Assembly (NCBI GenBank): GCA_017407905.1
Contig: JAFQVS010000008.1
Coordinates: 1 to 39,708, forward strand
Direction: 5' to 3'
Length of the DNA stretch: 39,708 nt
DNA from: Bacteroidaceae bacterium
GTDB lineage: Bacteria; Bacteroidota; Bacteroidia; Bacteroidales; Bacteroidaceae
A program made the translations under genes and the position numbers. Numbering within the stretch: position 1 is the first letter of the stretch; the number at the start of each line of letters is the position of its first letter. The notes beneath the pieces were generated by a model. That model had not been told where the DNA came from. It did no database searches and saw only the letters and a program-made list of their open reading frames with translations. Positions 6,409 through 26,764 of this stretch are shown piece by piece.

Positions 6409-6560
6409 TTCAGACTATAAATATAAAATTGATAGAAAATAAGGGTAATAGTGTCATTGCTAAGGTTCTTATAGATTGCAACGAAGAGATTATAAGAATA
6501 ACATTTACCGAGGAGTATGGTAACGACACTGTAACCGATAGAATAGATGCCTACGTATAA
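6405..6560 (+). pseudogene. Possible truncated gene ending at the leader element
   Basis: A reading frame with protein-like composition runs from the end of the pyruvyl transferase gene to TAA at 6558-6560. It includes VIAKVLIDCNEEI and RITFTEEYGND and ends TDRIDAYV. It has no ATG; TTG at 6429 would give 43 residues. I do not recognise a family. The sequence reads like the first part of a longer protein that stops abruptly. The stop codon lies inside GTATAAAGTTTATA, the left border of the repeated leader element, so insertion of that element could have cut the gene. Chance is not excluded. Confidence 0.3.
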
Positions 6561-6746
6561 AGTTTATAGACTTTGCAATAGAAATTTTTATAGGTCTTTT
6601 TTAGAATGTTTTTCATTTTTCAAAGGCGAATAGTGGGTTCAAGTAACTGCGAAAATGGGGAAAACAGACAAAAAAGAGCACAAAAAGGCAATCACAACTC
6701 GCGGGTGAATGTAATCTTTTTTTTGAAAGAAATTTAAACAGTTTCT
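6555..6746 (+). repeat. Leader element copy A, upstream of the flippase gene
   Basis: This copy shares ordered blocks with the tandem copies before susC: GTATAAAGTTTATA (6555-6568), AATTTTTATAGG (6583-6594), AGAATGTT (6603-6610), AAAACAGAC (6661-6669), AAAAAGGC (6682-6689), a T-run, and AAATTTAAACAGTTTCTT (6730-6747). AACAGAC to AAAAAGGC (19 bases) and AAAAAGGC to AAATTTAAACAG (48 bases) match the susC copy almost exactly. GTTTTTC-ATTTTTC can pair with GAAAAT-GGGGAAAAC (6646-6665 region), capped by a variable segment. It is non-coding and ends 18 bases before the flippase start codon, so it would form the 5' leader of that mRNA. Confidence 0.7.
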
Positions 6747-6764
6747 TGATTGGCAGATAATATA

Positions 6765-8297
6765 ATGGAAGAAAATAATAAACGTATTATAAAGAATACT
6801 CTGTATCTATACGTCAGGATGGGAGTAACAATTCTGTTGGGACTATTCTCGACAAGGATTGTGCTGGATGTCTTGGGCGAGAGTGATTATGGAACATACA
6901 CCGTTGTCGGTAGCTTTGTTTCGATGTTCACTATTCTCAATAGTATATTGCAGTCGGGTACACGCCGCTTTCTTGCACTTAATATAGGAAAGGGAGATAA
7001 GGAATTGTTACAAAGGACATTCTCTACTGCATTTGTGATACATTTGGGAATTGCCTTAATTGTTGGTCTGCTGTTAGAGACTTTCGGTCTGTGGTACATA
7101 AATAATCTCTTGAATGTTGCTCAAGAGAGAATGTTTGCCGTAAATGTTATTTTTCAATTTTCTGTGATAACCTGCATTTTGCAGATTATTCAGACACCTT
7201 ACGTTGCGGCTGTAACGGCACACGAGAAATTTAATATTTATGCTTATATGAGCATTTTCGACATTGTGGCGAAGATTGCTGTGCTGTTTCTGATTGTCTT
7301 CTACGATGGCGATAAACTAATAATCTACGCAGCATTGTTAATGGCTGTCTCTATAATAAGCATTATAATATACATGGTTTATTACTCGCGCTCCTTCGAT
7401 GAATGTAAAATGTCGCTGAAGGTTGATAAACCATTGTTTAAGGAGATGTGTTCATTTTCGGGGTGGACAACATTAGGGCACGTTAGTGCTGTCCTTAATG
7501 CTCAGGGCACAACAATGATTCTGAATTTTTTCTTTGGCACGGTGGTTAATGCAGCCCGTGGATTGTCGGGTGCCGTATTGACGCTTATAGAGCAATTTGT
7601 TTCGGGCTTTATCACTGCTGCTGTGCCACAGTTGGTAAAGTATTATGGAGCGGGTGATATGGAGCGATTTAAGAAACTTATCTTTAATGTTTCGCAATAT
7701 ACTTTGTTCCTTTTTGCCATTTTTGCCGTGCCAATATTGCTGGAGATTGATTATGTGCTTGGATTGTGGCTGGGTGATGTGCCCGAATATACGTCGGCAT
7801 TTATTAAGGTAACCATCATTGTGTTCTTTATAAAATATTCAAACTATATGCTCGACCAAGGGCTAAATGCAAGTGGTAACGTGAAACAATTATCGCTGAT
7901 AATAGCTCCTATTTATCTTATAAAGATTCCGATAATATTAGTTGTTGCTTATATGGGCGGTTCGCCTATCGCGGTATATTTGGTGTCGCTTATTCCGCAA
8001 TTCTTGGGAATGGTGGTGATTTTGTATCTGCTGAATAAATATACTAATTTCCCCTCTATTGAGTATTTTATTAAGATATTCCTAAAGAATTTTGCTCTGA
8101 TTCTTATTGCCATAATACCGCCTTATGTATTACAGATGTATATGCAGGCCGGAGCAGCGAGGTTCTTCTCGGTGTGCGCGCTTTCTGTATTAACTACTTT
8201 GACTATCTTATACACGTTGGGGCTGAATAAGGAGGTTAGAGTAATGGTTGCCAATAAATTTGTTTCCACTCTTAGAAAATTCCATATTGTTAAATGA
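6765..8297 (+). CDS. Wzx-type polysaccharide flippase (MOP superfamily)
   Basis: The product is an integral membrane protein of 510 residues with about 12-14 hydrophobic helices and the N-terminal NTLYLYVRMGVTILLGLFS signature of Bacteroidetes Wzx-like proteins. It would flip undecaprenyl-linked oligosaccharide across the inner membrane. I chose ATG at 6765 (MEENNKRIIKN) over an in-frame TTG at 6750, because the TTG lies next to the repeated AAATTTAAACAG leader motif. The last codons overlap the next gene by 4 bases (ATGA). No Wzy polymerase is evident in the cluster. Confidence 0.9.
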   Translation: MEENNKRIIKNTLYLYVRMGVTILLGLFSTRIVLDVLGESDYGTYTVVGSFVSMFTILNSILQSGTRRFLALNIGKGDKELLQRTFSTAFVIHLGIALIVGLLLETFGLWYINNLLNVAQERMFAVNVIFQFSVITCILQIIQTPYVAAVTAHEKFNIYAYMSIFDIVAKIAVLFLIVFYDGDKLIIYAALLMAVSIISIIIYMVYYSRSFDECKMSLKVDKPLFKEMCSFSGWTTLGHVSAVLNAQGTTMILNFFFGTVVNAARGLSGAVLTLIEQFVSGFITAAVPQLVKYYGAGDMERFKKLIFNVSQYTLFLFAIFAVPILLEIDYVLGLWLGDVPEYTSAFIKVTIIVFFIKYSNYMLDQGLNASGNVKQLSLIIAPIYLIKIPIILVVAYMGGSPIAVYLVSLIPQFLGMVVILYLLNKYTNFPSIEYFIKIFLKNFALILIAIIPPYVLQMYMQAGAARFFSVCALSVLTTLTILYTLGLNKEVRVMVANKFVSTLRKFHIVK

Positions 8298-9196
8298 CAG
8301 ACACAAGACCCTACATATCAGTAATTGTTCCGGTGTATAACGCCGAGGGGTATATTCATCGTTGCGTGGATAGTTTATTGCAACAGACATACAGCAACTT
8401 TGAAATAATACTTGTTGACGACGGCAGCCCCGATGGCAGCGGTGCCATTTGTGATGAATATGCACGAAAGGATAGCCGCGTAAAGGTTATTCACAAGGAG
8501 AATGGTGGGGTGGCATCGGCCCGTCAATTGGGTATTGATAACGCAAAGGGAGAATATACCATACACGCCGACCCTGATGATTGGGTCGAGCCGACAATGC
8601 TTGAGCAGCTCTGCAATAAGGCAAAGACTGCGGATGCCGATATGGTTATATGCGACTTTTGGGTCGATTGCGAGCAGCAAAATATATACCGCACACAGCA
8701 ACCTACAAGCAATAGTGCCGACGCTGTTCTTGACGACCTGCTTTTTAATAGGATGCACGGTGCATTATGGAATAAACTCATAAAGCGCGATTGTTACAGT
8801 AAATTTAAAGTCTCTTTTGTTGCCGGACTAAACTATTGCGAAGATTATTTGGTGTGTGTGAAATTGTTGCAAAGAGGTATAAAAGTGGCATATTTAAATA
8901 AAGCCTTTTATCACTACGACCAGATTGTAAACAGTAACAGTATAACAAGAAATTATACATTAAAAATATATAGACAACGAGTACTTTTTATTGATGAACT
9001 AAAAAGAGTACTAAATGAAAAGTATTCCGAAGGCATACTGAAAAACGAAGCAAATGTTGCAATGGAGTGTCTCTCTTATAAAGTATTGACAAAGAAAGAG
9101 TTTAAGGCTATATATTCAAAAAATAAATGGAAATTACTAAAGTATATTAACGGTTACCGTTCTAAAATAAGATTTTTATTAGCATTATCATTTTAG
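8294..9196 (+). CDS. GT2 family glycosyltransferase
   Basis: The 300-residue inverting glycosyltransferase has a GT-A fold start (YISVIVPVYNAEGYIHRCVDSL), a nucleotide-binding LVDDGSPDGSG stretch near 40-52, NGGVASARQLGI near 70-80, and the DPDDW metal-binding motif at 93-97. The usual active-site E/D region follows (NYCEDYLVCVKL, near 175-190). It probably extends the repeat unit of the surface glycan; donor and linkage are unknown. Its start overlaps the flippase stop by 4 bases, so translation is likely coupled, and it precedes the fucosyltransferase gene by 8 bases. Confidence 0.92.
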   Translation: MTDTRPYISVIVPVYNAEGYIHRCVDSLLQQTYSNFEIILVDDGSPDGSGAICDEYARKDSRVKVIHKENGGVASARQLGIDNAKGEYTIHADPDDWVEPTMLEQLCNKAKTADADMVICDFWVDCEQQNIYRTQQPTSNSADAVLDDLLFNRMHGALWNKLIKRDCYSKFKVSFVAGLNYCEDYLVCVKLLQRGIKVAYLNKAFYHYDQIVNSNSITRNYTLKIYRQRVLFIDELKRVLNEKYSEGILKNEANVAMECLSYKVLTKKEFKAIYSKNKWKLLKYINGYRSKIRFLLALSF

Positions 9197-9204
9197 AGAG
9201 TATT

Positions 9205-10050
9205 ATGAAATATGTAGTTTTTTCGGGAGGTTTGGGTAATCAGATGTTCCAATATGCTTTTATGCTTTCATTAAAACATAAAGGTATTAAGGCGCTTGCC
9301 GATACAAGTGTATATGAACGCACTATTGCGCATAATGGCTTCGAGCTCGATAAGATATTTAATACAAGTCATAAGTTTATAAAGAGAAGTAAAATTGTTG
9401 GGTTTATCTTTAAACTGCTTCACAGGAGGCGCCATCCGCTATTGTGGTTTAGGGAGAATAAGCCAATGGTATATGATAATACCGTTTATAAAACAACAAA
9501 AATGTTCTTAGATGGATGTTGGGTCTCGGAGTTATATTTTAAGAATATCGAGGATGTTATAAGGCGTGAGTTTAAATTTTGTAATATCAGCAACGAGAAT
9601 CTTTTGATAGCCGAAAAGATGCGTAACGAGGAGTCTGTCTCTTTACATATAAGACGAGGCGACTATTTGACGTTCAAGAATTTTCAAGTATGTGGCACAA
9701 AGTATTATAAGCGGGCTATCGAGCATATTTGTAGCACTGTTAAAAATCCTCTCTTTTATATATTCTCTAACGATACTGTTTGGGCAAAAGAGTTTATTAA
9801 GCAGTTTCCCGTGAATTATAAAATAGTAGTACATAATACGGGAGTAAATAGTTATCAGGATATGTTTCTGATGAGTAGATGCAAGCATAATATTATTGTT
9901 AATAGTACCTTTAGCTGGTGGGGCGCATATTTAAATGATAATAAGGATAAGATTGTGGTTTCGCCCAAGCAGTGGCTTAGGCATATTGACTGCAATGCGA
10001 ATTGTCCCGGTTGGACTATTCTTGATGAGGAGTTTCCTGATATTGAATAA
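9205..10050 (+). CDS. GT11 family alpha-1,2-fucosyltransferase
   Basis: The 281-residue enzyme has the GT11 hallmarks: GGLGNQMFQYAF near 9-20, the HIRRGDY donor-binding motif at 148-154, and NSTFSWWGAYL near 230-240. The family moves L-fucose from GDP-fucose onto galactose in alpha-1,2 linkage (FutC, WbsJ, WbiQ). In Bacteroidales such genes often build host-like fucosylated surface glycans. No GDP-fucose synthesis gene (fkp, gmd, fcl) lies in the window. An AAATTTAAACAG motif starts 4 bases after its stop codon. The linkage is inferred from family; the acceptor is unknown. Confidence 0.92.
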   Translation: MKYVVFSGGLGNQMFQYAFMLSLKHKGIKALADTSVYERTIAHNGFELDKIFNTSHKFIKRSKIVGFIFKLLHRRRHPLLWFRENKPMVYDNTVYKTTKMFLDGCWVSELYFKNIEDVIRREFKFCNISNENLLIAEKMRNEESVSLHIRRGDYLTFKNFQVCGTKYYKRAIEHICSTVKNPLFYIFSNDTVWAKEFIKQFPVNYKIVVHNTGVNSYQDMFLMSRCKHNIIVNSTFSWWGAYLNDNKDKIVVSPKQWLRHIDCNANCPGWTILDEEFPDIE

Positions 10051-10054
10051 TAAT

Positions 10055-10073
10055 AAATTTAAACAGTTTCTTA
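10055..10073 (+). repeat. Solo copy of the leader-element 3' motif
   Basis: AAATTTAAACAGTTTCTTA lies 4 bases after the GT11 stop codon and about 100 bases before the GT32 start. It equals the 3' end of the element at 6730-6747 but lacks the upstream blocks. The frame through it reads on as an apparent short tail (to TAG at 10157-10159, with an internal MIHRSSKFLGF start at 10100). That tail may be a gene remnant or chance. Confidence 0.6.
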
Positions 10074-10172
10074 ACCATAATTTTTGTTTTATAAAAAAGA
10101 TGATTCACCGTTCGAGCAAATTCTTGGGCTTTATCTTATTTGGGGTGAAACACGATTAGAAATATTGCATTT

Positions 10173-10949
10173 ATGATACCAAAAATAATTCATTACTGTT
10201 GGTTCGGACGTAATCCGCTTCCGCAGTCGGCCAAAGAGTGTATTGCGTCGTGGAGAAAGTTTCTTCCCGATTATGAAATAAAAGAGTGGAACGAGGATAA
10301 TTTTGACGTTAATACAGCAACCTATACGTCCGAGGCTTATAAGGCAAGGAAATTTGCTTTTGTAAGCGACTATGCCCGTTTTTGGATATTGTATAACTAT
10401 GGGGGACTCTATTTTGATACAGATGTCGAGATTTTAAAGCCGCTGGATGATATTATACAAAGGGGCGGTTTTATGGGAATTGAAAAGATTGAGGGTAATA
10501 CTTTAGATAATTTCAAGGATGGAACAGTGCTTGTTGCTCCCGGCCTCGGTCTTGGAGTAGAGAGGGGGCATAGTCTGTACAAGGAGGTGCTTGATGTGTA
10601 TAATGGAAAACATTATATTGGTTGGAATGGCAGGCATACGGGTACTGTCGTAACTACCACAACCAATATTCTGTTAACCAAAATAAAATTGGAAAAGGAT
10701 AAGATAAGCGAGGTTGATGGCATCTTTATTTATCCCGATGAGTATTTCGACCCTATGAATTACTATACCAAAGAGATAAAGATAACGGAGAATACGCGTA
10801 CCATCCACAAATATGCGGCTACGTGGACTTCTAATGGTACAAGGCTCGGCGCTATATGCGAGAGGCTGAGGAATATATATATCAGGCTCTATATTATGTT
10901 TATGAGAAAGGCGCCTGTTATTGCCAAGCGCCAAGGAATGACTATTTAG
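10173..10949 (+). CDS. GT32 family glycosyltransferase
   Basis: The 258-residue enzyme starts with IPKIIHYCWFG, typical of GT32 (capsular polysaccharide synthesis, OCH1-related). It contains SDYARFWILYNYGGLYFDTD with the DxD motif at 82-84, which binds the metal and nucleotide sugar. A C-terminal IHKYAATW-like motif supplies the His/Trp pair common in this family. Family members use UDP-galactose, UDP-GlcNAc or GDP-mannose, so the sugar cannot be named. It is the last gene of the A+T-rich cluster. No clear intrinsic terminator separates it from the fucI promoter region. Confidence 0.9.
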   Translation: MIPKIIHYCWFGRNPLPQSAKECIASWRKFLPDYEIKEWNEDNFDVNTATYTSEAYKARKFAFVSDYARFWILYNYGGLYFDTDVEILKPLDDIIQRGGFMGIEKIEGNTLDNFKDGTVLVAPGLGLGVERGHSLYKEVLDVYNGKHYIGWNGRHTGTVVTTTTNILLTKIKLEKDKISEVDGIFIYPDEYFDPMNYYTKEIKITENTRTIHKYAATWTSNGTRLGAICERLRNIYIRLYIMFMRKAPVIAKRQGMTI

Positions 10950-11048
10950 AATCGGTTAAAATTTCTAAAAAAGATTTTTTGAATATTCGAGCTTTAGCTT
11001 AAATATTATAAAAAATGCTCAAATCTTTTATAAGAGAAAAAAAAGTGT

Positions 11049-11056
11049 TATTTTCG
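11049..11056 (+). promoter_or_regulatory. Candidate -7 box of fucI
   Basis: TATTTTCG matches TAnnTTTG at 7 of 8 positions, 53 bases upstream of the fucI start. A clear -33 TTTG is not seen. No operator-like palindrome is obvious. Confidence 0.35.
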
Positions 11057-11108
11057 CAAACAGACTACTAACAAACACAAACTAACTTTTCAATACAATT
11101 AAAAGATT

Positions 11109-12881
11109 ATGAGCAAACATCCTAAAATAGGTATTCGTCCGACGATTGACGGACGTCAGGGTGGGGTGCGCGAGAGCCTCGAAGAGAAGACAATGAATCT
11201 GGCTAAGGCTGTGGCCGAGCTTATCTCGGCCAATGTGAAATATGCCGACGGAAAGCCTGTGGAGTGTGTTATTGCCGATGGCACTATTGGTCGTGTGGCC
11301 GAGAGTGCTGCTTGTGCGGCTAAATTCGAGCGCGAGAATGTGGGTGCCACAATCTCGGTAACATCTTGCTGGTGCTACGGTAGCGAGACGATGGATATGC
11401 ACCCTCATTGGCCAAAGGCTGTGTGGGGATTCAACGGTACCGAGCGTCCCGGCGCGGTGTATCTTGCGGCGGTGCTTGCGGGACACGCACAGAAGGGGCT
11501 GCCTGCGTTCGGCATCTACGGACACGACGTGCAAGACCTTGACGATAATACAATCCCCGACGACGTTGCCTGCAAGATTCTTCGTTGGGCGCGTGCTGCG
11601 GTTGCCGTGGCACAGATGCGCGGCGAGAGCTATCTGTCGGTGGGCAGTCAGTGTATGGGAATTGCGGGCTCTATCGTTGACCAGAATTTCTTCCAAGAGT
11701 ATCTTGGAATGCGTAACGAGAGTGTCGATGAGACCGAGATTCTGCGTCGTATGGACGAGGGTATCTACGACCACGAGGAGTACGAGAAGGCTATGGCGTG
11801 GACCGAGAAATATTGCAAGCCTCGCGAGGGATGGGACAAAAATCGTCCCGAGAAGCAGAAAGACCGTGCCGGCAAGGATGCCGATTGGGAGTTTGTCGTT
11901 AAAATGACACTCATCGTGCGCGACCTTATGCTGGGCAACCCCCGTCTGCGTGAGATGGGATTCAAAGAGGAGGCCATCGGACACAATGCCATTGCCGCGG
12001 GATTTCAGGGGCAGCGTCAGTGGACCGATTGGAAGCCCAACGGCGACTTTACCGAGGCACTCTTGTGCAGCACATTCGATTGGAACGGCGTGCGCGAGGC
12101 TTATGTGCTTGCAACCGAGAATGACGCGTGCAACGGCGTTGCGATGCTCTTCGGCAAGCTGCTAACGGGCTGCGGACAGATGTTCTCGGACGTGCGTACA
12201 TATTGGAGCCCCGAGGCTGTCAAGCGCGTAACGGGTAAGGAGCTTACGGGTCTTGCCGCCGGCGGTATGATTCACCTCATAAACTCGGGCGCAACGACAC
12301 TCGACGCAACGGGCGCAAGCACAAATGCAGCGGGTGAGCCCTGTATGAAGCCCTGCTGGCAGATGACCGAGGCCGACGCCGAGGCTTGTCTGAACAATAC
12401 AAATTGGATGCCTGCCGACCGCGACTATTTCCGCGGAGGAGGATTCTCGTCCAATTTCCTCTCGAAGGGTGGAATGCCCGTAACAATGAGCCGTCTGAAC
12501 CTTGTAAAAGGCCTCGGCCCCGTGCTTCAGATTGCCGAGGGCTGGACGGCCGACGTCGCCCCCGAGATTCACGAGGTGCTGAATATGCGCACCGACCCCA
12601 CGTGGCCCACAACGTGGTTCGTGCCGCGTCTGTGCGATAAGGCTCCCTTTAAGGACGTCTATTCGGTGATGAACAATTGGGGTGCCAACCACGGTGCAAT
12701 AAGCTACGGACACATTGGCGCCGACCTTATAACCCTTGCCTCGATGCTGCGTATCCCCGTGTGTATGCACAATGTCGAGGAGGATAAGATTTTCCGTCCC
12801 GCCGCTTGGAACGCATTCGGAATGGACAAAGAGGGTGCCGATTATCGTGCTTGTCAGAATTACGGCCCTGTATATAAATAA
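11109..12881 (+). CDS. fucI: L-fucose isomerase FucI
   Basis: This 590-residue cytoplasmic enzyme converts L-fucose to L-fuculose (and D-arabinose to D-ribulose), the first intracellular step of fucose breakdown. It matches the Escherichia coli enzyme (591 residues) along its length, starting with [20 protein letters not shown]. The Mn-binding residues fall where expected: Glu337 (TEND), Asp361 (SDVRTYW) and His535 (GHIGAD). Family assignment is very secure. A strong terminator follows before the mutarotase and permease genes. The kinase, aldolase and regulator of the pathway are not in the window. Confidence 0.98.
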
Positions 12882-12902
12882 ACGTAACAAAGTGGGGTAG
12901 AG

Positions 12903-12954
12903 GAACTTGCGGCCCACGGCAAAATGTTGGCCGTGGGCTCCCTGCTTTTTTTTT
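12903..12954 (+). terminator. Terminator between fucI and the mutarotase gene
   Basis: GCCCACGGC (12912-12920) pairs with GCCGTGGGC (12930-12938) around a 9-base loop. The stem can extend through AGAGGA/TCCCT, and nine T residues follow (12946-12954). The T-run ends only 22 bases before the next start codon, leaving little room for a separate promoter. It may act as an attenuator within the fuc operon. Confidence 0.85.
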
Positions 12955-12974
12955 GAAATTCAAACAGCTTCTTA
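12955..12974 (+). repeat. Leader-element 3' motif upstream of the mutarotase gene
   Basis: GAAATTCAAACAGCTTCTTA starts directly after the terminator T-run and ends 2 bases before the start codon. It matches the 3' end of the elements at 6730 and 26746, except for T-to-C at one site and the variable base before TTCTT. The upstream blocks of the full element are absent. Confidence 0.6.
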
Positions 12975-12976
12975 TT

Positions 12977-13375
12977 ATGAGTGAAACAAAATTAACGGGA
13001 TACAAGGTTCAGCAGTATGCCGGGCCGGTGAAGAGATACTGTCAGACGCTCGACCTTAAAGACAATCCCGAGCTTATTGCCGAGTATCGTCGCCGACACA
13101 GCGAGGGCGAGGCGTGGAGCGAGATTCTTGACGGGATACGCGAGGTTGGTATTCTTGAAATGGAGATTTATATTGTCGGGACAAGGCTTTTTATGATTGT
13201 CGAGACGCCGCTCGACTTTGAGTGGAGCGAGGCAATGGCGCGCCTCTCGACGCTGCCGCGTCAGCAGGAGTGGGAGGATTATATGTCCGAGTTTCAGAAG
13301 GCTGCTCCCGGTGCCTCGTCCGACGAAAAGTGGGTGCTTATGGAGCGTATGTTCCACCTATATAATGTAAAATGA
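12977..13375 (+). CDS. L-fucose mutarotase of the RhaM (COG3254) type
   Basis: The 132-residue protein belongs to the RhaM/DUF718 fold, not to the FucU fold. It shows EYRRRHSEGEAW (compare EEYQRRH of E. coli RhaM), EIYIVGTRLFMIVET and a WEDYM motif near 100 that carries active-site aromatic residues. The enzyme interconverts alpha and beta anomers of a 6-deoxy-hexose. Because it lies between fucI and fucP and overlaps fucP by 4 bases, L-fucose is the likely substrate, as known for other COG3254 members in fucose clusters. I chose ATG 12977 (MSETKLTG) over an upstream TTG (12953) that would translate the leader motif. Confidence 0.88.
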   Translation: MSETKLTGYKVQQYAGPVKRYCQTLDLKDNPELIAEYRRRHSEGEAWSEILDGIREVGILEMEIYIVGTRLFMIVETPLDFEWSEAMARLSTLPRQQEWEDYMSEFQKAAPGASSDEKWVLMERMFHLYNVK

Positions 13376-14682: not shown

Positions 14683-14701
14683 TGGCTGCTTGTGATATAT
14701 G

Positions 14702-14730
14702 AAAATCCCGCCGTCGGCGGGATTTTTTTT
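14702..14730 (+). terminator. Terminator of the fuc operon
   Basis: AAAATCCCGCCG pairs with CGGCGGGATTTT and is followed by a T-run, 19 bases after the fucP stop codon. Confidence 0.92.
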
Positions 14731-14793
14731 GTTATATTAGTGGAGTTTATGTTTTTTTTGCTGCAATAAATAAAACCTTTCGGGTTATTTGGC

Positions 14794-14801
14794 TAACTTT
14801 G
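14794..14801 (+). promoter_or_regulatory. -7 box of the ruvX-def-TPR operon
   Basis: TAACTTTG matches TAnnTTTG and is followed by GCGCTCG. It gives a leader of about 125 bases with two hairpins (CGAGTG 14812-14817 with CACTCG 14831-14836; TTTTCGC 14838-14844 with GCGAAAA 14856-14862). The hairpins could be regulatory, but no known leader type is recognised. Confidence 0.5.
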
Positions 14802-14931
14802 CGCTCGCATCCGAGTGTGAAAATAGTCTGCACTCGTTTTTCGCTCTCTTTGTGGGCGAAAATAAAAAAGACTGCACTTTAGGAGCAAACTATTAAAATG
14901 CGATAAAAAAGAGATTAAGACAGTAGGAAAG

Positions 14932-15360
14932 ATGGCACGTATTTTGGCAATAGACTATGGGAAACGACGCACGGGATTGGCTGTAACGGACGAGCTTCAG
15001 CTGATTGCGGGCGGGCTCACCACGGTCGATACAAAAGTGCTTATGGATTATATCCTCGATTATATGAAGCGCGAGCCGGTGGAGCGCATCGTGGTGGGGC
15101 TGCCCAAGCAGATGAATAACACACCGTCGGAGAATATGGTGCGCATCGAGCCGTTTGTGAATCGTCTGCGCAAGCTCGTGGATGTTCCCGTGGAGTATTA
15201 CGACGAGCGCTTTACGTCGGTGCTTGCCCACAGGGCTATGCTCGACTCGGGGATAGGGAAGATGGCGCGACGCAACAAAGAGCTTGTCGATGAGATTAGT
15301 GCCACCATCATCCTGCAATCGTATATGGAAAGCAAAAGAATGAAAAATTCAATATTATGA
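14932..15360 (+). CDS. ruvX: RuvX/YqgF family pre-16S rRNA nuclease
   Basis: The 142-residue RNase H-fold protein starts with ILAIDYGKRRTGLAVTDE, where the first acidic residue belongs to the active site, and has VVGLPKQMNN near 64 and a C-terminal Asp (VDEISATIIL) that completes the site. The family trims the 5' end of 16S rRNA in E. coli (YqgF) and is also annotated as a putative Holliday-junction resolvase. Length is normal. It overlaps def by 4 bases (ATGA), placing it in an operon with def and the TPR gene. Confidence 0.94.
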   Translation: MARILAIDYGKRRTGLAVTDELQLIAGGLTTVDTKVLMDYILDYMKREPVERIVVGLPKQMNNTPSENMVRIEPFVNRLRKLVDVPVEYYDERFTSVLAHRAMLDSGIGKMARRNKELVDEISATIILQSYMESKRMKNSIL

Positions 15361-18018: not shown

Positions 18019-18026
18019 TATCTTAG
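18019..18026 (+). promoter_or_regulatory. Candidate -7 box of thrS
   Basis: TATCTTAG followed by GCGCC resembles the TAnnTTTGCGC contexts before ruvX and infC (7 of 8 to consensus). It would give a leader of about 160 bases. No T-box is recognised, as expected in this phylum. Confidence 0.35.
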
Positions 18027-18194
18027 CGCCGCTTAAAAAATGAGAGTGGATTTTTTGGCCGTTTGAAATTGTGTCGCACAGGCTTTTTATGGAGAGACAA
18101 TGAAAGAAACTGACATTTTCGGGAAATAAAAAACTGCGACGCACACGGCTCGAAAAAAAGAAATATACATTAGTAATTAAAAACTTCTTATACT

Positions 18195-20162: not shown

Positions 20163-20191
20163 TAAATGCTTGCTAAGCAGACGTAAATAAA

Positions 20192-20231
20192 CAAATTATG
20201 GAGAAAAAACGACTTTTTTCTCCATAATTTG
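20192..20231. terminator. Terminator between thrS and infC
   Basis: A perfect 18-bp inverted repeat (20192-20209 against 20214-20231, loop CGAC) lies 30 bases after the thrS stop codon. The T6 tract is inside the 3' arm and no long T-run follows, so termination strength is uncertain. Confidence 0.65.
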
Positions 20232-20295
20232 TTGAAAAAACATACACGGCGCGAAAAAAAACGCCGAAGCGCTTCTCTATTTGAAGAATAAATGC

Positions 20296-20303
20296 TAAAT
20301 TTG
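20296..20303 (+). promoter_or_regulatory. -7 box of the infC-rpmI-rplT operon
   Basis: TAAATTTG matches TAnnTTTG exactly and is followed by GCGCCGC. The predicted start leaves a leader of about 110 bases before infC. Confidence 0.55.
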
Positions 20304-20338
20304 CGCCGCAATAAGCGAAAAATTTAATAAAAATTTAG

Positions 20339-20385
20339 AGTTGGGTGGGTTTACCCCGTAACAAAAGGGGCGAACTTAAGCAACT
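20339..20385 (+). ncRNA. Candidate structured leader of infC
   Basis: AGTTG (20339-20343) pairs with CAACT (20381-20385). Inside, GTT (20349-20351) pairs with AAC (20373-20375) and CCCC (20354-20357) with GGGG (20367-20370), leaving a GTAACAAAA loop. The position, between promoter and infC, fits autoregulation of the operon by L20 or IF3 as known in other phyla. No match to a named leader is claimed. Confidence 0.4.
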
Positions 20386-20419
20386 AAAAAACAAAAAAGA
20401 ACCTTATCAATATTCTTGA

Positions 20420-21016
20420 ATGAAGAACGACAATCTGAAGAATCAGTACCGTGTGAACGAGCAAATTCGTGTAAATGAGGTACGTATCGTAGGCGATGAC
20501 ATTGAGGCAATGGTGCTCCCTACATCAAAGGCTCTGCGTATGGCAGAGGAGAGGGGGGTTGACCTCGTTGAAATTTCGCCCACAGCCGTTCCACCGGTGT
20601 GCCGCCTTATTGAATACTCAAAATTTCTGTACCAGCTTAAAAAGCGTCAGAAAGAGCAGAAGGCCAAGCAGGTGAAGATTGATGTTAAGGAGATTCGTTT
20701 CGGCCCTCAGACCGACGACCACGACTACAACTTTAAGTTGAAGCACGCAATCGGTTTTTTGCAGGATGGCGATAAGGTAAAGGCTTACGTATTCTTTAAA
20801 GGCCGTTCGATTCTTTTCAAAGAGCAGGGCGAGATACTGCTTCTGCGCTTCGCAAAAGACCTTGAGGAGTATGGAAAATTGGAGATGATGCCTCTGCTCG
20901 AAGGTAAGCGTATGACCATTATGATGGCACCCAAAAAGGCCGCTCCCGTAAAGAAGGAGAAGCCCGCGCAGCCCAAGCCCGAGGCTCCGAAAGAGAATAA
21001 CGAGAAAAGCGAGTAA
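20420..21016 (+). CDS. infC: Translation initiation factor IF-3
   Basis: The 198-residue protein has the IF3 N-domain (about 5-75: [44 protein letters not shown]), a Lys-rich linker ([11 protein letters not shown]) and the C-domain (about 85-170: [30 protein letters not shown]). A Lys/Pro/Glu-rich tail follows (about 172-198), as seen in other Bacteroidetes. IF3 binds the 30S subunit and checks start-codon choice. The start is ATG, not the rare AUU used for autoregulation in enterobacteria, so any autocontrol must work in another way. Confidence 0.97.
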
Positions 21017-21067
21017 CGTTGTATAGTACGTTGCCGTAATAATACTAATCAAAATAATTTTTAAACA

Positions 21068-21265
21068 ATGCCAAAAGTAAAGACTAACTCCGGTGCCAAA
21101 AAAAGATTCGCTCTTACCGGAACGGGTAAAATCAAGAGAAAGCACGCTTATCACAGTCACATCCTGACTAAGAAGACAAAGAAGCAGAAGAGAAACCTTG
21201 TACACTTTACAACCCTCTCGCCTGCTAATGTAAAGAGTGTTAAGGAGCTGTTGTCACTGCGTTAA
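21068..21265 (+). CDS. rpmI: Ribosomal protein bL35
   Basis: The 65-residue basic protein starts [36 protein letters not shown], diagnostic of L35 of the large ribosomal subunit. Length matches the family. It lies 51 bases after infC and 96 before rplT. The gap to rplT holds a candidate RNA structure. Confidence 0.97.
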
Positions 21266-21283
21266 GTAAAAAGATTATTAACC

Positions 21284-21345
21284 GAATGTTTTTAGCAGGG
21301 CGTAATAAAAAGCCCGAAAGTCCGCCTAAAGCGGCGCTAACATTC
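21284..21345 (+). ncRNA. Candidate three-way-junction RNA upstream of rplT
   Basis: GAATGTT (21284-21290) pairs with AACATTC (21339-21345) and AGC (21294-21296) with GCT (21336-21338), leaving a TTT bulge. Inside lie two short hairpins: GGGC/GCCC (21298-21301 with 21312-21315) and CCGC/GCGG (21322-21325 with 21331-21334). The structure ends 16 bases before the rplT start codon. L20 autoregulates its operon in E. coli and Bacillus by binding mRNA that mimics its 23S rRNA site, so this could be an L20 site. That link is an inference. Confidence 0.5.
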
Positions 21346-21361
21346 AAAAGGAATTAAAACT

Positions 21362-21706
21362 ATGCCAAGATCAGTAAATCACGTTGCTTCAAGAGCAAGA
21401 AGAAAGAAAATTTTAGGTTTGACAAGAGGTTACTTCGGTGCCCGTAAGAATGTGTGGACAGTTGCCAAGAATACTTGGGAGAAGGGTCTGACATACGCTT
21501 TCCGCGACCGTCGTAACAAGAAACGCGAGTTCCGCGCACTCTGGATTCAGCGTATCAACGCTGCTGCGCGTCTCGAGGGAATGTCATACTCGCAGCTTAT
21601 GGGTGCTCTGCACAAGGCCGGTATCGAGATTAACCGTAAGGTTCTTGCCGACCTCGCAATGAACAATCCCGCTGCGTTCAAGGCTATTGTGGATAAGGTA
21701 AAGTAA
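21362..21706 (+). CDS. rplT: Ribosomal protein bL20
   Basis: The 114-residue protein shows the L20 pattern: [17 protein letters not shown] at the N-terminus, [40 protein letters not shown], and [17 protein letters not shown] at the C-terminus. It binds 23S rRNA early in 50S assembly. It is the last gene of the infC-rpmI-rplT operon and is followed by a strong terminator, then by the 6S-like RNA gene. Confidence 0.98.
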
Positions 21707-21729
21707 TCCATAATTAGTAGGTTGAATAA

Positions 21730-21764
21730 CAGGCTGCACAAAAAAATGTGCAGCCTGCTTTTTT
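21730..21764 (+). terminator. Terminator of the infC-rpmI-rplT operon
   Basis: CAGGCTGCACA (21730-21740) pairs with TGTGCAGCCTG (21747-21757), followed by a run of T residues. Confidence 0.95.
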
Positions 21765-21906
21765 TGTCTCTGTGGCTCCCTAAGCGTGCGAGGTCTTTTG
21801 GGGCAATCGGCCGAGGATAAGGGGCTGAAGGCTTCTTTATCTGTCGAGGGTAAAATGTAACCGAGTATGAAAGAGATAAAAAATAATTAAAAAATAGGGG
21901 GTAAAA

Positions 21907-21938
21907 TTTGGTTTTGTGATTAAAGCACCATATATTTG
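21907..21938 (+). promoter_or_regulatory. Promoter of the 6S-like RNA
   Basis: TTTG (21907-21910) and TATATTTG (21931-21938) are 20 bases apart, a full -33/-7 match for the Bacteroidetes primary sigma factor. The predicted start falls at the 5' arm of the RNA's closing stem (about 21944). Confidence 0.75.
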
Positions 21939-21943
21939 TGTAT

Positions 21944-22132
21944 GGTTTTGCTGCATCGATTGACTGGGAAACTCATCAATTAAATCTGAAAACCGAGATG
22001 CCTTCGTATTGTTCAATGGCGGGCCACGCCTTAGGGTAGCTTTCGAGAGCCGGTGGATTACAAAGAACAGGAGCGCTCAAATCTTATATTCTCGGAGTTT
22101 CATCGTTCTCTTCGTGCAGCAAAACTTTTTTT
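21944..22132 (+). ncRNA. Bacteroidales-1 RNA, probable 6S-like RNA
   Basis: A promoter on the left and a terminal stem with T7 on the right define a transcript of about 189 nt. GTTTTGCTGCA (21945-21955) pairs perfectly with TGCAGCAAAAC (22115-22125). A second helix pairs CCGAGA (21993-21998) with TCTCGG (22090-22095). Between these two helices is a large internal bubble whose 5' strand can form a small hairpin (ATTGA/TCAAT). Size, closed ends and bubble resemble 6S RNA, which binds RNA polymerase holoenzyme. The published Bacteroidales-1 motif is described as often lying downstream of the L20 gene with a Bacteroidetes-type promoter, and this locus fits that description. Equating it with 6S is an inference. 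Confidence 0.78.
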
Positions 22133-22133
22133 G

Positions 22134-22167
22134 TGGGCTCGGCGGTATTTACCGCGGGGCTTTTTTT
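22134..22167 (+). terminator. Second terminator after the 6S-like RNA
   Basis: GCGGT (22142-22146) pairs with ACCGC (22151-22155) inside a GC-rich stem followed by GGGC and T7. It would end any transcript that reads past the RNA's own terminal stem. From here to the next hairpin (22294) I see nothing. Confidence 0.75.
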
Positions 22168-22293
22168 ATGCCTTTATGCGTAGCTGTCTTTGGAGCTTGC
22201 TTGCGCTCTGTATTAAGGCGCGAGGTTGCTCTTTTTCCTTTTTTTGTTGTCTAATGGCGCTGAGGGAATTTTGAACCGACGCATCGTGGCAAT

Positions 22294-22337
22294 AAAATTC
22301 CTCCCGACTACACAAAAAAGTAGTCGGGAGGAATTTT
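22294..22337. terminator. Terminator of the transporter-GH95 operon
   Basis: A perfect 18-bp inverted repeat (22294-22311 against 22320-22337, loop ACAAAAAA) has A and T ends, so it works on both strands. It lies 23 bases past the GH95 stop codon. Confidence 0.92.
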
Positions 22338-22360
22338 TGATTGTGGCTTCTCGGGGAAGG

Positions 22361-24865
22361 TTATTTTACTCTTAGCTTGCCGTCTTTTAGTACAACGGTG
22401 TAGCTGCGGCCTTTCTTGGTGCCGAAATTAAGGGTGCTGTCGCCGTAGCGCAGGCTGCACTTTCCACCGTTCTTCGATTTTATGGTGGCTTGTGTCAGCT
22501 TGCCTTCGTTCCACGCAATGTCAACGTCGAAGCCGCCTTTGGCGCAGATGCCGCTGATGTTACCCTCGCTCCACGCGTCGGGGAGGGCGGGGAGCAGGTG
22601 GATAAAGCCCATATGGCTCTGCATAAGCATCTCGGTGATGCCGGCTGTGCCGCCGAAATTGCCGTCTATCTGGAAGGGGGCGTGTGTGTCCCACAGATTG
22701 TCGAGGGTGCCGTTCTTCAGTAGGTTGCCGAAGAGGGTGTAGGCGTGGTTGCCGTCGTGCAGGCGGGCCCATTGGTTCAGTTTCCAGCCCATACTCCAGC
22801 CGGTGGCGCCGTCGCCGCGATGTACAAGCACTACTTTTGATGCTTCGGCAAGGGTGGGAGTGGTTACGGGCGAGATTGTGTGTCCGGGGTGCAGGCCGAA
22901 GAGGTGGTTCACGTGGCGGTGCTGGTCTTTGGGGTCGTCAATGTCTTTGCTCCACTCCATAAGCTGGCCGTAACGTCCTATTTGGTAGGGGGCGAGCTTG
23001 TCGAGCACTTGTGCCCACTCTTTGCGCAGCTTACCATCGACGCCCAGCTCTTTGCTGGCGTCAATGGCGTTGAGCAGAATCTCGCGTATTACGCCGTGTA
23101 CAAAGGTGGCTCCTTGGTCGATGGGGCCGTGCTCGGGCGAGGTTGAGGGGGCGGCGGTGTATGTGCCGTCCTCTTTCTTCCACAGATAATCGACGGCGAA
23201 GAGGGCGCTGCTCTTTATAATGTCGTAGCCAACCTCTTTAAGGAATTTCTTGTCGCGTGTGTAGTCGTAGTAGTCCCACACGTGTGTGGCCAGCCACGGG
23301 CCTGCCATCGGGTTGAAGTTCCACGACATATCTTGGCTGATGAGGGGGGCGGTGAATCCGAATATGTTGCCCGAGATGCTGGCTGTCCAGCCACGTGCTC
23401 CGAAATAGGATTTTGCGGTTACGGCGCCGGGCTTTGTGAGGGTGCGGATAAAGTCGATGAGGGGTAGGACGCACTCGTCGAGGTTGGTGGCGCAGGCTGG
23501 CCAATAGTTCATTTGTAGGTTGATGTTGTTGTGGTAATCGACACGCCACGGGCCATCGACGTTGTTGTGCCACATTCCCTGAAGGTTGGCGGGGAGGTTG
23601 CCGGGGCGCGAGCTTGCGATGAGCAGGTATCGGCCGAATTGAAAATAGAGCTCTTCGAGGCCGTAGTCGGGCTTGCCGGTGCGGTAGCTCTTGAGGCGCG
23701 CGGGGGTGGGCAGCGATGCAACGCCGGGGTACTCGAGGGTGGTGGGGGCGTTGGGGTTAAGGTCGAGGCTCACGCGGCCGAAGAGTGATGAGTAGTCGGC
23801 GTAGTGCTCGGCAAAGAGGGCGTCGTAGCCTTTTGTAAGAGCGCCTTGCATCCACGCTTGGGTGGTTGCGTCGGGGTCAACGCCTACGTAGGCTTTGGGG
23901 TCGGAAAAGTCGGGGTCGAAATTGATTTTGTAGTCGGTGTCGGCGGTTATGTAGAAGCATACCTCGTCGGCGCCTGTAATGTGTATCTGACCATCTTTTA
24001 CAGTCTGTTTACCGCCTTTGGCTACTGCCTGAATGCGCATTGTGTATTGCATTTTGTTGTTGTCGAGGGTGCCGCGGAACAGGATGCCGCAGTTGCCGTC
24101 GCTCGTCAGGGTGCCCTCGGAGACGGGGTTCTGTGCGTAGCTAAGGATGAGGTTCTGCTCTCCGGGTTTGTCGGCGCTGTATTTTATGACGATTGTGTTG
24201 GCGGGGTACGATGCGAAATATTTACGCTCGAATTTTACTCCCTTGCGCTCGTATTGTATAACGGCGAGGGCCGAGTCGAGCGAGAGGATGCGCTTGTAGT
24301 CGCCAAGGCCGATGGCATTGTGCCCCGTCTCGATGTATATCTCGCCCATTGTGGTGAAGTTTCCGAAGCGGAAGGGCTTCTCGCCGTAATATTCGTAGGC
24401 TACGGGGCTGTTGAAATTCTCGCGTGTGAGCTTGGCGGCCTTTGCTTCGTCGCCGTCGATGAAGGCTTGACGTATGTCGTCGAGCAGATGGGCCGACTCT
24501 TTGTTGACGTTCCAATAGTACTCGGCGCCTTTCTCGGTGTTGGGGCCGCCGCGCCACAGGGTCTTTTCGTTCAGCGTGATGCGCTCGGCCTCGATGGAAC
24601 CGAGGATGTTTCCGCCGATGCTGCCGTTACCGATGGGCAGGGATTTTGACTCCCACTCTTGGTCGGGGTTATGTGCGCCCTCGCCGGCCCACTCGGGCTT
24701 GCCTTTGCCTTTCCATAGGTCGGGGCGTCCGCCGTACCATACTTGTCGTCCGTTCAGGGTCGTGGGCTTGTCGAACCACACCGAGAGGCCTTGTGTGTAG
24801 TTAGTCTGTGCCTCGGCAGTGAGTGCCAATAGCACTGCCACTGCAATTGTCTTGATTCTTTTCAT
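22361..24865 (-). CDS. GH95 family alpha-L-fucosidase
   Basis: The 834-residue enzyme has a signal peptide (about 1-19, ending AEAQ), an N-terminal beta-sandwich domain (about 25-290: LPIGNGSIGGNILG), an (alpha/alpha)6 barrel (about 310-760) and a short C-terminal beta domain. The AfcA catalytic set is present: Asn447 and Asn449 in HNNINLQMN, Glu578 in SPEHG and Asp734 in FQIDGNFGG. Family members hydrolyse alpha-1,2-linked L-fucose with inversion; some prefer L-galactose. There is no lipobox, so the periplasm is its likely place. It follows the AmpG-like transporter gene after 14 bases on the same strand and should share its promoter. It would release fucose for FucP. Confidence 0.95.
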   Translation of the reverse strand: MKRIKTIAVAVLLALTAEAQTNYTQGLSVWFDKPTTLNGRQVWYGGRPDLWKGKGKPEWAGEGAHNPDQEWESKSLPIGNGSIGGNILGSIEAERITLNEKTLWRGGPNTEKGAEYYWNVNKESAHLLDDIRQAFIDGDEAKAAKLTRENFNSPVAYEYYGEKPFRFGNFTTMGEIYIETGHNAIGLGDYKRILSLDSALAVIQYERKGVKFERKYFASYPANTIVIKYSADKPGEQNLILSYAQNPVSEGTLTSDGNCGILFRGTLDNNKMQYTMRIQAVAKGGKQTVKDGQIHITGADEVCFYITADTDYKINFDPDFSDPKAYVGVDPDATTQAWMQGALTKGYDALFAEHYADYSSLFGRVSLDLNPNAPTTLEYPGVASLPTPARLKSYRTGKPDYGLEELYFQFGRYLLIASSRPGNLPANLQGMWHNNVDGPWRVDYHNNINLQMNYWPACATNLDECVLPLIDFIRTLTKPGAVTAKSYFGARGWTASISGNIFGFTAPLISQDMSWNFNPMAGPWLATHVWDYYDYTRDKKFLKEVGYDIIKSSALFAVDYLWKKEDGTYTAAPSTSPEHGPIDQGATFVHGVIREILLNAIDASKELGVDGKLRKEWAQVLDKLAPYQIGRYGQLMEWSKDIDDPKDQHRHVNHLFGLHPGHTISPVTTPTLAEASKVVLVHRGDGATGWSMGWKLNQWARLHDGNHAYTLFGNLLKNGTLDNLWDTHAPFQIDGNFGGTAGITEMLMQSHMGFIHLLPALPDAWSEGNISGICAKGGFDVDIAWNEGKLTQATIKSKNGGKCSLRYGDSTLNFGTKKGRSYTVVLKDGKLRVK

Positions 24866-24879
24866 TTTTTTGTGAATTA

Positions 24880-26151
24880 TTATTTGTTGTTTTTTGTTCC
24901 GAATTTGGGGTCAATCTTCAGTAGCGCCGATACAGCGAATGTGGCAAGGCAGCATATCATAACCCATATAAAAAAGTATTTGTATCCTATCGCCTCTTGA
25001 ATGTAGCCCGACACCATTCCCGGGAGCATCATTCCAAGTGCCATAAAGGCCGTGGAGATTGCGTAGTGGGCGGTTGCATATTCGCCGCGCGAAAAATATA
25101 TAAGGTATAGCATATAGGCTGTAAAGCCGAAGCCGTAGCCCAGCTGCTCGATGAATATGCAGCTGTTTATTGCAAGCAGGCTGTCGGGCTGAGCGTAGCT
25201 CAGATAGACATAAACAAGGTCGGGCAGGGAGATTGCAAGCACCATAGGCCACAGCCAATATTTGAGGCCCTGCCGCGAGATACATATTCCGCCGGCTATT
25301 CCACCGATTATTAGGCCTATTACGCCTATCGTGCCGTATGTGATACCTATCTGCTCGGTTGACATCCCGAGGCCGCCCACAGCCTTTGCATCCAGCAGAA
25401 AGGGGTTAATCATTTTTACCAATTGTGCCTCGGGCAGGCGGAAAAGGAGCATAAAGAGAAGGGCGCACACTATCCCGGGCTTCTGAAAATAGCTTAGGAT
25501 GATTTTTCCGAAATTGCCTCCTGCCTCGCCCACGCTGTGAATGTTGCGCGCAGCATCCTTGTGTGGCGCGGGTAGGAATTTTGTGTGGTATAATCCCATA
25601 AGAAGAAGTATGGCTGCCAGCGTGGCGAATGTGATGCTCCACGCAAGGGCAATGTTGCCCGTGTGTGTTTCGAGCAGGCCGGCAAGGATTATCAGCACCC
25701 CCTGCCCGAAAATCGTGGCTATGCGGTAGAAGATACTGCGTATTCCGCTGAAGAAAGATTGCTCTTGCTCGTCGAGGCCCAGCATATAAAAGCCGTCGGC
25801 GGCAATGTCGTGCGTGGCCGAGCTGAAGGCAATGAGCCAAAATAGACACAGTGTCCATTGAAAGAAATTGCTCGCCGGGATAAGGAAAGCTATCGAGCCC
25901 AGCGCAGCGCCCATAAGAAGCTGCGTGGCGACAATCCATCGGCGGCGGGTCGAGAACATATCGACCAGCGGGCTCCAAAAGGGCTTTATCACCCACGGCA
26001 GATAGAGCCAGCTGGTGTATAATGCTATTGCCGTGTTGTCAATGTCGAGGCGTTTGTACATAATTACCGATATTACCGTAACGGCAAAGTAGGGTAGGCC
26101 CTCGGTGAAATATAGTGTCGGTATCCACGCCCACGGGTTGTGCTTACTCAT
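24880..26151 (-). CDS. AmpG-like MFS transporter
   Basis: The 423-residue inner-membrane protein has about 12 transmembrane helices and the start PWAWIPTLYFTEGLPYFAV, followed by WLYLPWVIKPFWSPLVD with FSTRRRW in the first cytoplasmic loop. This is the pattern of the AmpG/PAT branch of the major facilitator superfamily. AmpG imports GlcNAc-anhydroMurNAc peptides; relatives in Bacteroidetes glycan loci are thought to carry oligosaccharides or amino sugars. Here it is the first gene of an operon with the GH95 fucosidase and stands back-to-back with susC, so import of a glycan product is likely, though the substrate is unknown. Confidence 0.9.
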   Translation of the reverse strand: MSKHNPWAWIPTLYFTEGLPYFAVTVISVIMYKRLDIDNTAIALYTSWLYLPWVIKPFWSPLVDMFSTRRRWIVATQLLMGAALGSIAFLIPASNFFQWTLCLFWLIAFSSATHDIAADGFYMLGLDEQEQSFFSGIRSIFYRIATIFGQGVLIILAGLLETHTGNIALAWSITFATLAAILLLMGLYHTKFLPAPHKDAARNIHSVGEAGGNFGKIILSYFQKPGIVCALLFMLLFRLPEAQLVKMINPFLLDAKAVGGLGMSTEQIGITYGTIGVIGLIIGGIAGGICISRQGLKYWLWPMVLAISLPDLVYVYLSYAQPDSLLAINSCIFIEQLGYGFGFTAYMLYLIYFSRGEYATAHYAISTAFMALGMMLPGMVSGYIQEAIGYKYFFIWVMICCLATFAVSALLKIDPKFGTKNNK

Positions 26152-26253
26152 ATTTTTGCAAAATATTAAGATGTACTGTTTTCTTGCCGCAGCCTATCGG
26201 CGGCAATATGTTGTGTGTAAATTTCGTTAATTTTTGTTGAATATGCAAATTTA
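26152..26253 (-). promoter_or_regulatory. Promoter and leader of the transporter-GH95 operon
   Basis: On the minus strand TAAATTTG (26246-26253) matches TAnnTTTG, giving a leader of about 88 bases. The leader contains a hairpin, TTGCCGC/GCGGCAA on the plus strand (26184-26190 with 26200-26206). No -33 box is clear. Confidence 0.5.
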
Positions 26254-26361
26254 AGCCATATAATAATGTGTAAACTATCGCAGCCTTGTGGAAAAATGGT
26301 TAAATGTTTCGCTTGTTAATAAAAAAGATGGAAAATAAGTTAAGGTATAAGAAAATTTGTG

Positions 26362-26369
26362 TATTTTTG
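26362..26369 (+). promoter_or_regulatory. Candidate -7 box of the susC operon
   Basis: TATTTTTG matches TAnnTTTG. If used, the susC mRNA has an unusually long leader of about 460 bases that spans both tandem leader-element copies. A promoter inside the leader is not excluded. Confidence 0.45.
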
Positions 26370-26424
26370 GCAAAATTGTATATAAACGTATGAGGGCGAT
26401 TTTTTTCGGATGATTTAAGAGGCC

Positions 26425-26608
26425 GTATAAGTTTATATCGCCAATTTTATAGTGCAGGGACGGGATGTTTTTCTCTTTTTGGGGAGTGCATAGCAGGCTG
26501 TGCGGTCTTTAAAAAGAACAGACGTTCCCCGGTGTAAAAACGGCGGATACATTATGGCCCCTATAAGAAAATGTTTTTTGGAATTTTGGAAGTTGTTTAA
26601 ATTTTTTG
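26425..26608 (+). repeat. Leader element copy B1, distal copy before susC
   Basis: It has the same ordered blocks as copy A: GTATAAGTTTATA (26425-26437), AATTTTATAG (26443-26452), GGGATGTT (26462-26469), AACAGAC (26517-26523) and AAAAACGGCG (26536-26545). The AACAGAC to AAAAACGGC distance is 19 bases, as in copy A. GGGATGT can pair with ACGTTCCC (one bulged T), and CTTTTT with AAAAAG. The apical part is a separate hairpin (GCATA/TGTGC). The end differs from the other copies: TTGTTTAAATTT (26594-26605) is close to the reverse complement of the usual AAATTTAAACAG, so B2 is flanked by inverted versions of the motif. Confidence 0.65.
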
Positions 26609-26609
26609 T

Positions 26610-26764
26610 TGCCAATTTTTTATAGGTAAAGAATAGGATGTTATTTTTTAAGGGCAAGCTATGTAAGCTCAAAAAAAACAGACATCTTTGAATATAAAAA
26701 ACGGCGAAACACAAGGAAACAACATTATAAGATAATATTTCTTTGAAATTTAAACAGATTCTTA
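26610..26764 (+). repeat. Leader element copy B2, proximal copy before susC
   Basis: It contains AATTTTTTATAGG (26613-26625), AGGATGTT (26635-26642), AAAACAGACATC (26675-26686), AAAAACGGCG (26697-26706), a small hairpin with a T-rich stretch, and AAATTTAAACAGATTCTTA (26746-26764). AGGATGT pairs with ACATCTT, closing a stem with T-run against A-run and an AGCT-ATGTA-AGCT cap. It ends about 70 bases before the susC start codon and belongs to its leader. Confidence 0.7.

Follow-up and report, generated by a model that had tools for sequence, protein, structure and literature searches.

Probable decayed insertions of an IS5-type fold-back miniature element upstream of flippase-like and susC-like genes in a Bacteroidaceae genome, with a hairpin tip shared between element classes

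Introduction

Miniature inverted-repeat transposable elements (MITEs) of the IS5 family have been described from Porphyromonas gingivalis under the names BrickBuilt, MITE239, MITE464/PgRS and MITE700, and promoter activity was reported for BrickBuilt (PMC4596501). Here we analyse a stretch of 39,708 nucleotides from a Bacteroidaceae bacterium (assembly GCA_017407905.1, contig JAFQVS010000008.1; hereafter the window), in which three similar sequences, designated A, B1 and B2, are situated upstream of a flippase-like gene (A) and of a susC-like gene (B1 and B2). An original prediction, made from the letters of the window, took them for copies of a structured leader and offered two readings, a cis-acting RNA of surface-glycan operons or a small mobile element. 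We are confident that the best explanation overall is that all three are old, decayed insertions of an IS5-type fold-back MITE, a membership that is well supported. The interiors of MITEs are usually taken as dispensable. The interior of this family carries a 22-nt hairpin tip shared with MITEs that have different ends, and this shared tip is the new point of the analysis.

Anatomy and copy number of the element

The element is a non-coding, fold-back MITE of about 190 bp with inverted ends GAAGCTGTTTAAATTT and TWA target duplications. In the window's own genome, the full copies among the matches listed read, from left to right, TWA, GAAGCTGTTTAAATTTATATCG, TTTTTATAGG, GGCGCRTAGCGGGCTAYGTAAC, AACAGAC, AAAAAnGGC, AAATTTAAACAGCTTC and again TWA; they measure 173-196 bp, and in the ORF (open reading frame) lists no long ORF is confined to them. 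The block AAATTTAAACAG-N-TTCTT, which had been predicted as part of the leader, is present, and is one half of an inverted repeat that bounds a mobile element, the half at the right terminus.

The own-genome assembly (2,295,836 bases, 102 contigs, 84% complete) was scanned with the end motif at up to 3 mismatches, which gave 98 matches, many of them as opposite pairs, versus 4 for the reversed pattern; the flanks were inspected for nearly all 98 places, with a few 3-mismatch places left out. From the own-genome loci and those of relatives, 55 end pairs were obtained at up to 4 mismatches, including some alternative pairings that reuse one end, and 25 of these pairs (24 being TTA/TAA) had identical 3-bp flanks, as compared with 13.7 expected from shuffled left and right flanks. 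Among the full-length pairs (184-196 bp), the flanks were identical in 21 of 28, and one of the other seven is truncated at the end of its contig. Versions of only 44-81 bp (L049, L009 and L013), some without the tip, were also present, and so were solitary ends, with solitary right ends being common in the own genome. Many contigs end within copies, as near-identical repeats would do, and this, along with the nesting or abutment of B1 and B2, is compatible with a repeat. The sequences thus combine what is expected of MITEs: they are short and without a transposase gene, possess inverted ends and a target duplication, and occur in many copies at unrelated sites.

Two further loci of the own genome (L053 and L075) have the same type of ends and TTA duplications around a different interior, in which TAGCSSGCTA is kept in the middle.

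Copies in the window

The shared blocks were found in A, B1 and B2 in the predicted order and spacing, with AACAGAC followed by AAAAA(N)GGC at positions 6663, 26517 and 26677. The strict AACAGAC/AAAAAnGGC pair occurs 2 times in the window and 0 times in 200 first-order Markov shuffles (only this strict form was shuffled), copy A matching in the relaxed form only. A detection profile built from 14 elements, all from other genomes of the genus, which avoids circularity, recovered copy A at 6580-6745 (107.7 bits, E 1.3e-32), B2 at 26589-26761 (65.1 bits, E 1.4e-19) and B1 at 26420-26580 (43.1 bits, E 8.4e-13), whereas the best score in the controls (25 Markov shuffles and the reversed window) was 13.3 bits; the three copies with shared ordered blocks are thereby confirmed. 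Since the element is an imperfect palindrome over its full length, a profile of it gives matches on either strand. The features are as follows.

6553..6745, + strand: copy A, decayed MITE of subfamily II (profile; left limit by eye)
6625..6647, + strand: degraded hairpin tip (core) of copy A (alignment A2)
6730..6745, + strand: right terminal inverted repeat of copy A (end motif at 6729-6747, 0 mismatches)
26419..26587, + strand: copy B1, decayed MITE of subfamily I (profile; ends by eye)
26484..26505, + strand: degraded hairpin tip of B1 (alignment A2)
26589..26761, + strand: copy B2, MITE of subfamily I (profile; terminal inverted repeat pair 173 bp apart)
26652..26668, + strand: partly deleted hairpin tip of B2 (alignment A2)
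12955..12973, + strand: solitary right end of the same MITE (end motif with 1 mismatch; profile E 0.006)
10054..10072, + strand: solitary right end of the same MITE (end motif with 1 mismatch; profile only E 3.6)

B2 is the only copy in the window with both terminal inverted repeats kept (26589-26604 and 26746-26761). The left end of copy A (6553-6580) is degenerate; B1 has a damaged left end (26419-26434) with TAA before it, and its right end runs into B2. Copy A ends 19 bp upstream of the ATG (6765) of the flippase-like gene, which has a PF01943 match, and B2 ends 72 bp upstream of the susC-like ATG (26834), with the downstream susC/susD-like genes matching PF07715 and PF12741. The solitary end at 12955-12973 lies 3 bp upstream of an ATG (12977) and downstream of a terminator-like hairpin; for the one at 10054-10072 the end motif is the sole support.

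Candidate IS5-family partners

Of the 44 genomes from the genus, 32 contain the exact end motif; 57 genomes from elsewhere in the family and order gave 0, and so did the controls. PF13340 transposases were detected in 2 of the 44 genus genomes, as a truncated copy (L136) and as a decayed remnant with TAA flanks (L116). At L136, a perfect MITE end is located approximately 100 bp upstream of the truncated IS5-family transposase gene (NF033580), and relatives of this protein piece occur in 31 of 251 genomes of the family. Eleven of the 14 insertion sequence (IS) loci that were examined for ends gave pairs about 0.85-0.9 kb apart (L149 also a wider pair), and 7 of these 11 had identical TWA flanks; at L150, the IS ends agree with the MITE end at 16/16 positions on one side and 15/16 on the other. 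Both the ends and the target of IS5-family elements elsewhere in the family are therefore identical or almost identical to those of the MITE, and the sharing of ends with an IS5 element, by which a MITE is assigned to this family, is found in L136 (a truncated copy) and L150. Inverted ends, TWA duplications, copy number and IS5 elements with the same ends together support the 'small mobile element' of the original prediction.

An IS5-family transposase acting in trans would cut at the MITE ends, and the MITE would insert at TWA sites, mostly between genes, A, B1 and B2 having presumably decayed after their insertion. Given such insertion, the positions upstream of the flippase and susC genes are most likely chance landings.

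Several observations weigh against this interpretation. B2 is flanked by TTG and TTA and shows no target duplication, A and B1 each lack one clean end, and the 55 end pairs count some ends more than once. Among the 44 genus genomes there was no intact IS bearing such ends; of the genomes listed for a family-wide transposase search, the 16 that belong to the genus had no match, and in the window's own genome the PF13340 transposase was not found and both PF01609 genes are without these ends.

Fold-back structure and covariation

Alignment A2 comprised 24 elements, 21 chosen by their ends and the 3 window copies, and the predicted structure of 23 pairs was derived from the aligned sequences themselves, which favours it. 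Paired cells amounted to 96.0%, versus 83.4% after shuffling and 38-61% in slid versions; 78 cells were changed on both sides, versus 29.8 shuffled, and the covariation score was 0.388, versus 0.177 shuffled, with 0 of 500 shuffles as high. Further pair types were not raised in this alignment (26 versus 25.4 shuffled). Two subfamilies differ in the direction of a stretch of five pairs, A-T in one and T-A in the other, and this difference probably represents few events counted many times. The MITE is accordingly one long imperfect hairpin, the arms of which stay paired through paired changes. The compensating stem changes that had been noted between window copies are real and also hold across the 24 sequences, and the covariation check proposed for a wider alignment succeeded, with the qualification that a fold-back mobile element can give covariation as well. 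The tip was about as conserved as the ends in these end-selected elements, with mean identities of 0.884 for the tip, 0.893 and 0.942 for the ends, and 0.795 and 0.718 for the arms.

A hairpin tip shared between element classes

The tip is 22 nt long (GGCGCATAGCNNGCTAYGTAAC), with a stem GCRYAG/CTRYGY, a CNNG loop and a GC/AA internal loop; TAGCNNGCTA was found in 24 of the 28 full-length pairs of the window's class. The exact 22-mer GGCRCRTAGCGGGCTAYGTAAC was detected in at least 118 stretches of public genomes, with 0.23 chance matches expected. Counted by eye from their titles, these comprised 58 Bacteroidales metagenome-assembled genomes (MAGs), 1 Methylomonas MAG and 59 others, the latter, among the matches listed, having 55 Clostridia names, 3 the name 'bacterium' without group and 1 Selenomonadales. 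The Clostridia include Robinsoniella peoriensis, Clostridium sp. MCC353, Lachnospiraceae A4 and other isolates, along with many Lachnospiraceae. Among the matches listed, the tip was nearly always at the apex of a palindromic MITE. Automatic sorting of at least 121 matches by their ends assigned 60 to the window's class, 27 to a GGAACTG type and 22 to a AGCGTGTTT type; the 12 left unsorted were, by eye, damaged or related forms of these classes, plus a Methylomonas type (L210) and one unclear case (L266). The genomes behind 18 tip loci, chosen for the tip, contained between 2 and 111 copies when up to 3 mismatches were allowed, and the reversed control gave 0.

There was no match to the tip in E. 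coli genomes and, for two patterns, none in viral contigs; 3 matches in plasmids and 1 in phages, with E of 5-6, were taken as chance. None of four tip sequence strings was found in the literature searched, which covers part of the literature, nor was any report of MITEs in Lachnospiraceae or Methylomonas. In 11 IS5 bodies the tip was not found (best, 6 mismatches of 18), nor did the Robinsoniella IS locus L356 contain it when up to 4 mismatches were allowed, and the possibility that it is part of a transposase-bearing IS was rejected for the IS5 elements examined. A possible likeness to the XerCD dif site was set aside, as the spacer is 4 and not 6, and a CG/CG stem variant breaks the likeness.

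The consensus tips of six sets agreed at 19-22 of 22 positions. The arms of the window's class and of the AGCGTGTTT class showed no similarity (z -1.7 to 1.7), those of the Methylomonas and GGAACTG classes are related (z 4.3, 5.0), and a few other right-arm scores were raised (z 2.1 to 2.8). Identical TWA duplications were observed in 11 of 15 elements of the GGAACTG class in one genome (G663; 5.6 expected), and identical duplications in 6 of 8 of the Methylomonas class (3.2 expected). The AGCGTGTTT class has CTAG on most sides, with identical flanks in 13 of 23 and 11 of 19 (10.0 and 11.1 expected), a target so uniform that shuffling does not separate the duplications. When 30 loci were fetched from two Clostridia genomes by the AGCGTGTTT end, independently of the tip, 22 were paired at 145 bp, representing 18 distinct sequences, of which 14 carried the tip (up to 2 mismatches) and 4 a GNGRCGYAGCGGGCTACGTTGACC-like variant that keeps AGCGGGCT; the remaining loci were 2 of one IS without the tip near its ends and 6 solitary ends, of which one had the tip. 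An IS5-type element of about 0.88 kb in Robinsoniella (L356) has the ends of the resident MITEs and, by eye, a reading frame split in two, and at L360 an IS5-type element with MITE ends abuts a tip-bearing MITE. For the GGAACTG class of Lachnospiraceae and for the Methylomonas class, the loci inspected contained no autonomous partner.

A Lachnospiraceae locus (L249, tip at 5234-5255) consists of little more than the inverted ends and the 22-nt tip, and three loci of one MAG (L240, L290 and L268; ERR6760096_bin.23) belong to two MITE classes that differ in their ends but carry one and the same tip.

Function or descent of the tip

Our best guess is that the tip is a recognition element that helps the MITE to spread, and we give even chances to its conservation being due to recognition by a factor of the host or of transposition, either in DNA, as a cruciform or hairpin, or in RNA, as a hairpin. 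More tentatively, the tip may be a functional module of its own: a hairpin which a widespread factor recognises, which IS5-type MITE families of at least three phyla have exchanged despite their differing ends, and on which their spread depends.

Also conceivable, and in our view rather doubtful, is a non-functional tip left as a trace of descent: a single MITE would have spread between phyla and later had its ends and arms replaced when it recombined with local IS5 ends, or fold-back synthesis would have copied a hairpin seed onto new IS ends. The arms stay paired while their sequence differs between classes, as copy-back would give, and the ends of the Robinsoniella MITEs match those of the resident IS5 element. 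In addition, among 345 Bacteroidota genomes drawn evenly, the tip was detected in the window's own genome (17 places, up to 2 mismatches) and only once, with 2 mismatches, in another, which suggests acquisition. However, the near-constancy of the tip between classes with mostly dissimilar arms, and its conservation on a level with the ends, argue against mere descent, and so does the unpaired GC/AA internal loop, which is kept though palindrome correction would erase it. We favour a recognition element since conservation extends from the paired letters to the unpaired ones of the loop.

If the tip is a functional module, MITE interiors are not mere filler. Such near-constancy across MITE classes with different ends, in Bacteroidota, Bacillota and a gammaproteobacterium, would suggest either that some undescribed factor acts on these elements or that they arise by an undescribed route.

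Regulatory RNA and other readings

A dedicated cis-acting leader RNA, i.e. a hairpin in the 5' untranslated region that senses a signal or controls the processing of the flippase and susC transcripts, would account for copies upstream of both operons and on their strand, and for the covariation of the hairpin, and yet we regard it as very unlikely. An RNA role of the tip strand should favour G.T over A.C single changes in pairs, and in four tip-selected sets the distinct events were 24:12, 22:21, 32:15 and 13:7, together 91:55 (p 0.0036), a weak excess on the core strand; the unpaired control, however, gave 184:156, from which the paired positions differ only weakly (Fisher p 0.11; binomial versus control 0.047). 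Of 127 tip-bearing elements from several genomes, nearly all were intergenic and 1 lay inside a long ORF; their orientation was tandem sense in 31 and antisense in 43 (p 0.20), divergent in 28, convergent in 15 and incomplete in 10, a count based on crude ORF calling and on elements chosen by the tip, without a genome-wide background. One MITE (L004) is placed, by eye, between exonuclease-like and coaBC-like ORFs. Between 26350 and 26840 there was no terminator-like site, and a rho-independent attenuator in B1/B2 was rejected; promoter-like sites in the same interval were at the shuffled level.

No Rfam family covered A, B1 or B2, the window containing only Bacteroidales-1 elsewhere, and eight loci from Clostridia and Methylomonas gave sub-threshold matches only (generic microRNA hairpins, the best being MIR5380 with 60.1 bits versus 150), so that a known RNA family, none having reached the gathering score, was rejected as identity. 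The leader RNA was rejected as the main explanation on the genome-wide copies, the orientation and the missing terminator-like site, and it also conflicts with the transposon ends and TWA duplications of the copies; the predicted cis-acting RNA of surface-glycan operons is not supported in view of 98 versus 4 genome matches, copies beside other kinds of genes and no significant orientation bias. Individual copies of the MITE may still affect expression, as has been reported of BrickBuilt (PMC4596501). More generally, a 'leader' upstream of an operon may covary and still be a mobile fold-back element.

It is hardly credible that the copies are independent structured repeats of the REP/ERIC type which IS5 transposases do not move: such repeats are likewise palindromic, intergenic and present in many copies, but the present elements have defined inverted ends and target duplications, and their ends recur in IS5-family elements. 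The Robinsoniella genome contains, beside its own MITEs, an IS5 element with their ends, one copy of which abuts a MITE.

Other features of the window

The only Rfam match in the window was Bacteroidales-1 (6S-like RNA, RF01693) at 21949-22127 on the + strand, with 114.6 bits. A glycan-use cluster occupies 22361-39325, with GH95 and MFS genes divergent from the susC/susD-like genes, after which come two GH85-type proteins. A perfect 27-bp inverted repeat with a 5-bp loop at 2356-2414 is terminator-like. A 54-bp repeat (98%) is located near both contig ends (1-54 and 39535-39588), and the contig therefore probably breaks in another repeat.

Comparison with known elements

Bacteroidales-1 RNA differs from the MITE in place and sequence and has no link to it. 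QMITE1 and QMITE2 of Coxiella burnetii are MITEs able to be transcribed, with small RNAs reported to arise from them, and have other sizes and other direct repeats (PMC5896051). The P. gingivalis MITEs are closer, being short, non-coding and intergenic elements of a Bacteroidales genus with ends that match resident IS5-family elements; their ends, in contrast, are GAGACC... and ACGTCA..., and BrickBuilt, for which no fixed 3-bp TWA duplication is reported, has a 23-nt internal tandem repeat (PMC4596501). No such array was seen in the window copies, and a BrickBuilt-like tandem-repeat MITE was rejected on this ground. IS5-family IS (NF033580 transpos_IS5_3; PF13340 and PF01609) differ in their length of about 850-900 bp, their transposase gene and, in those examined, an interior in which the tip was not found, and they have the same ends and the same TWA target as the MITE.

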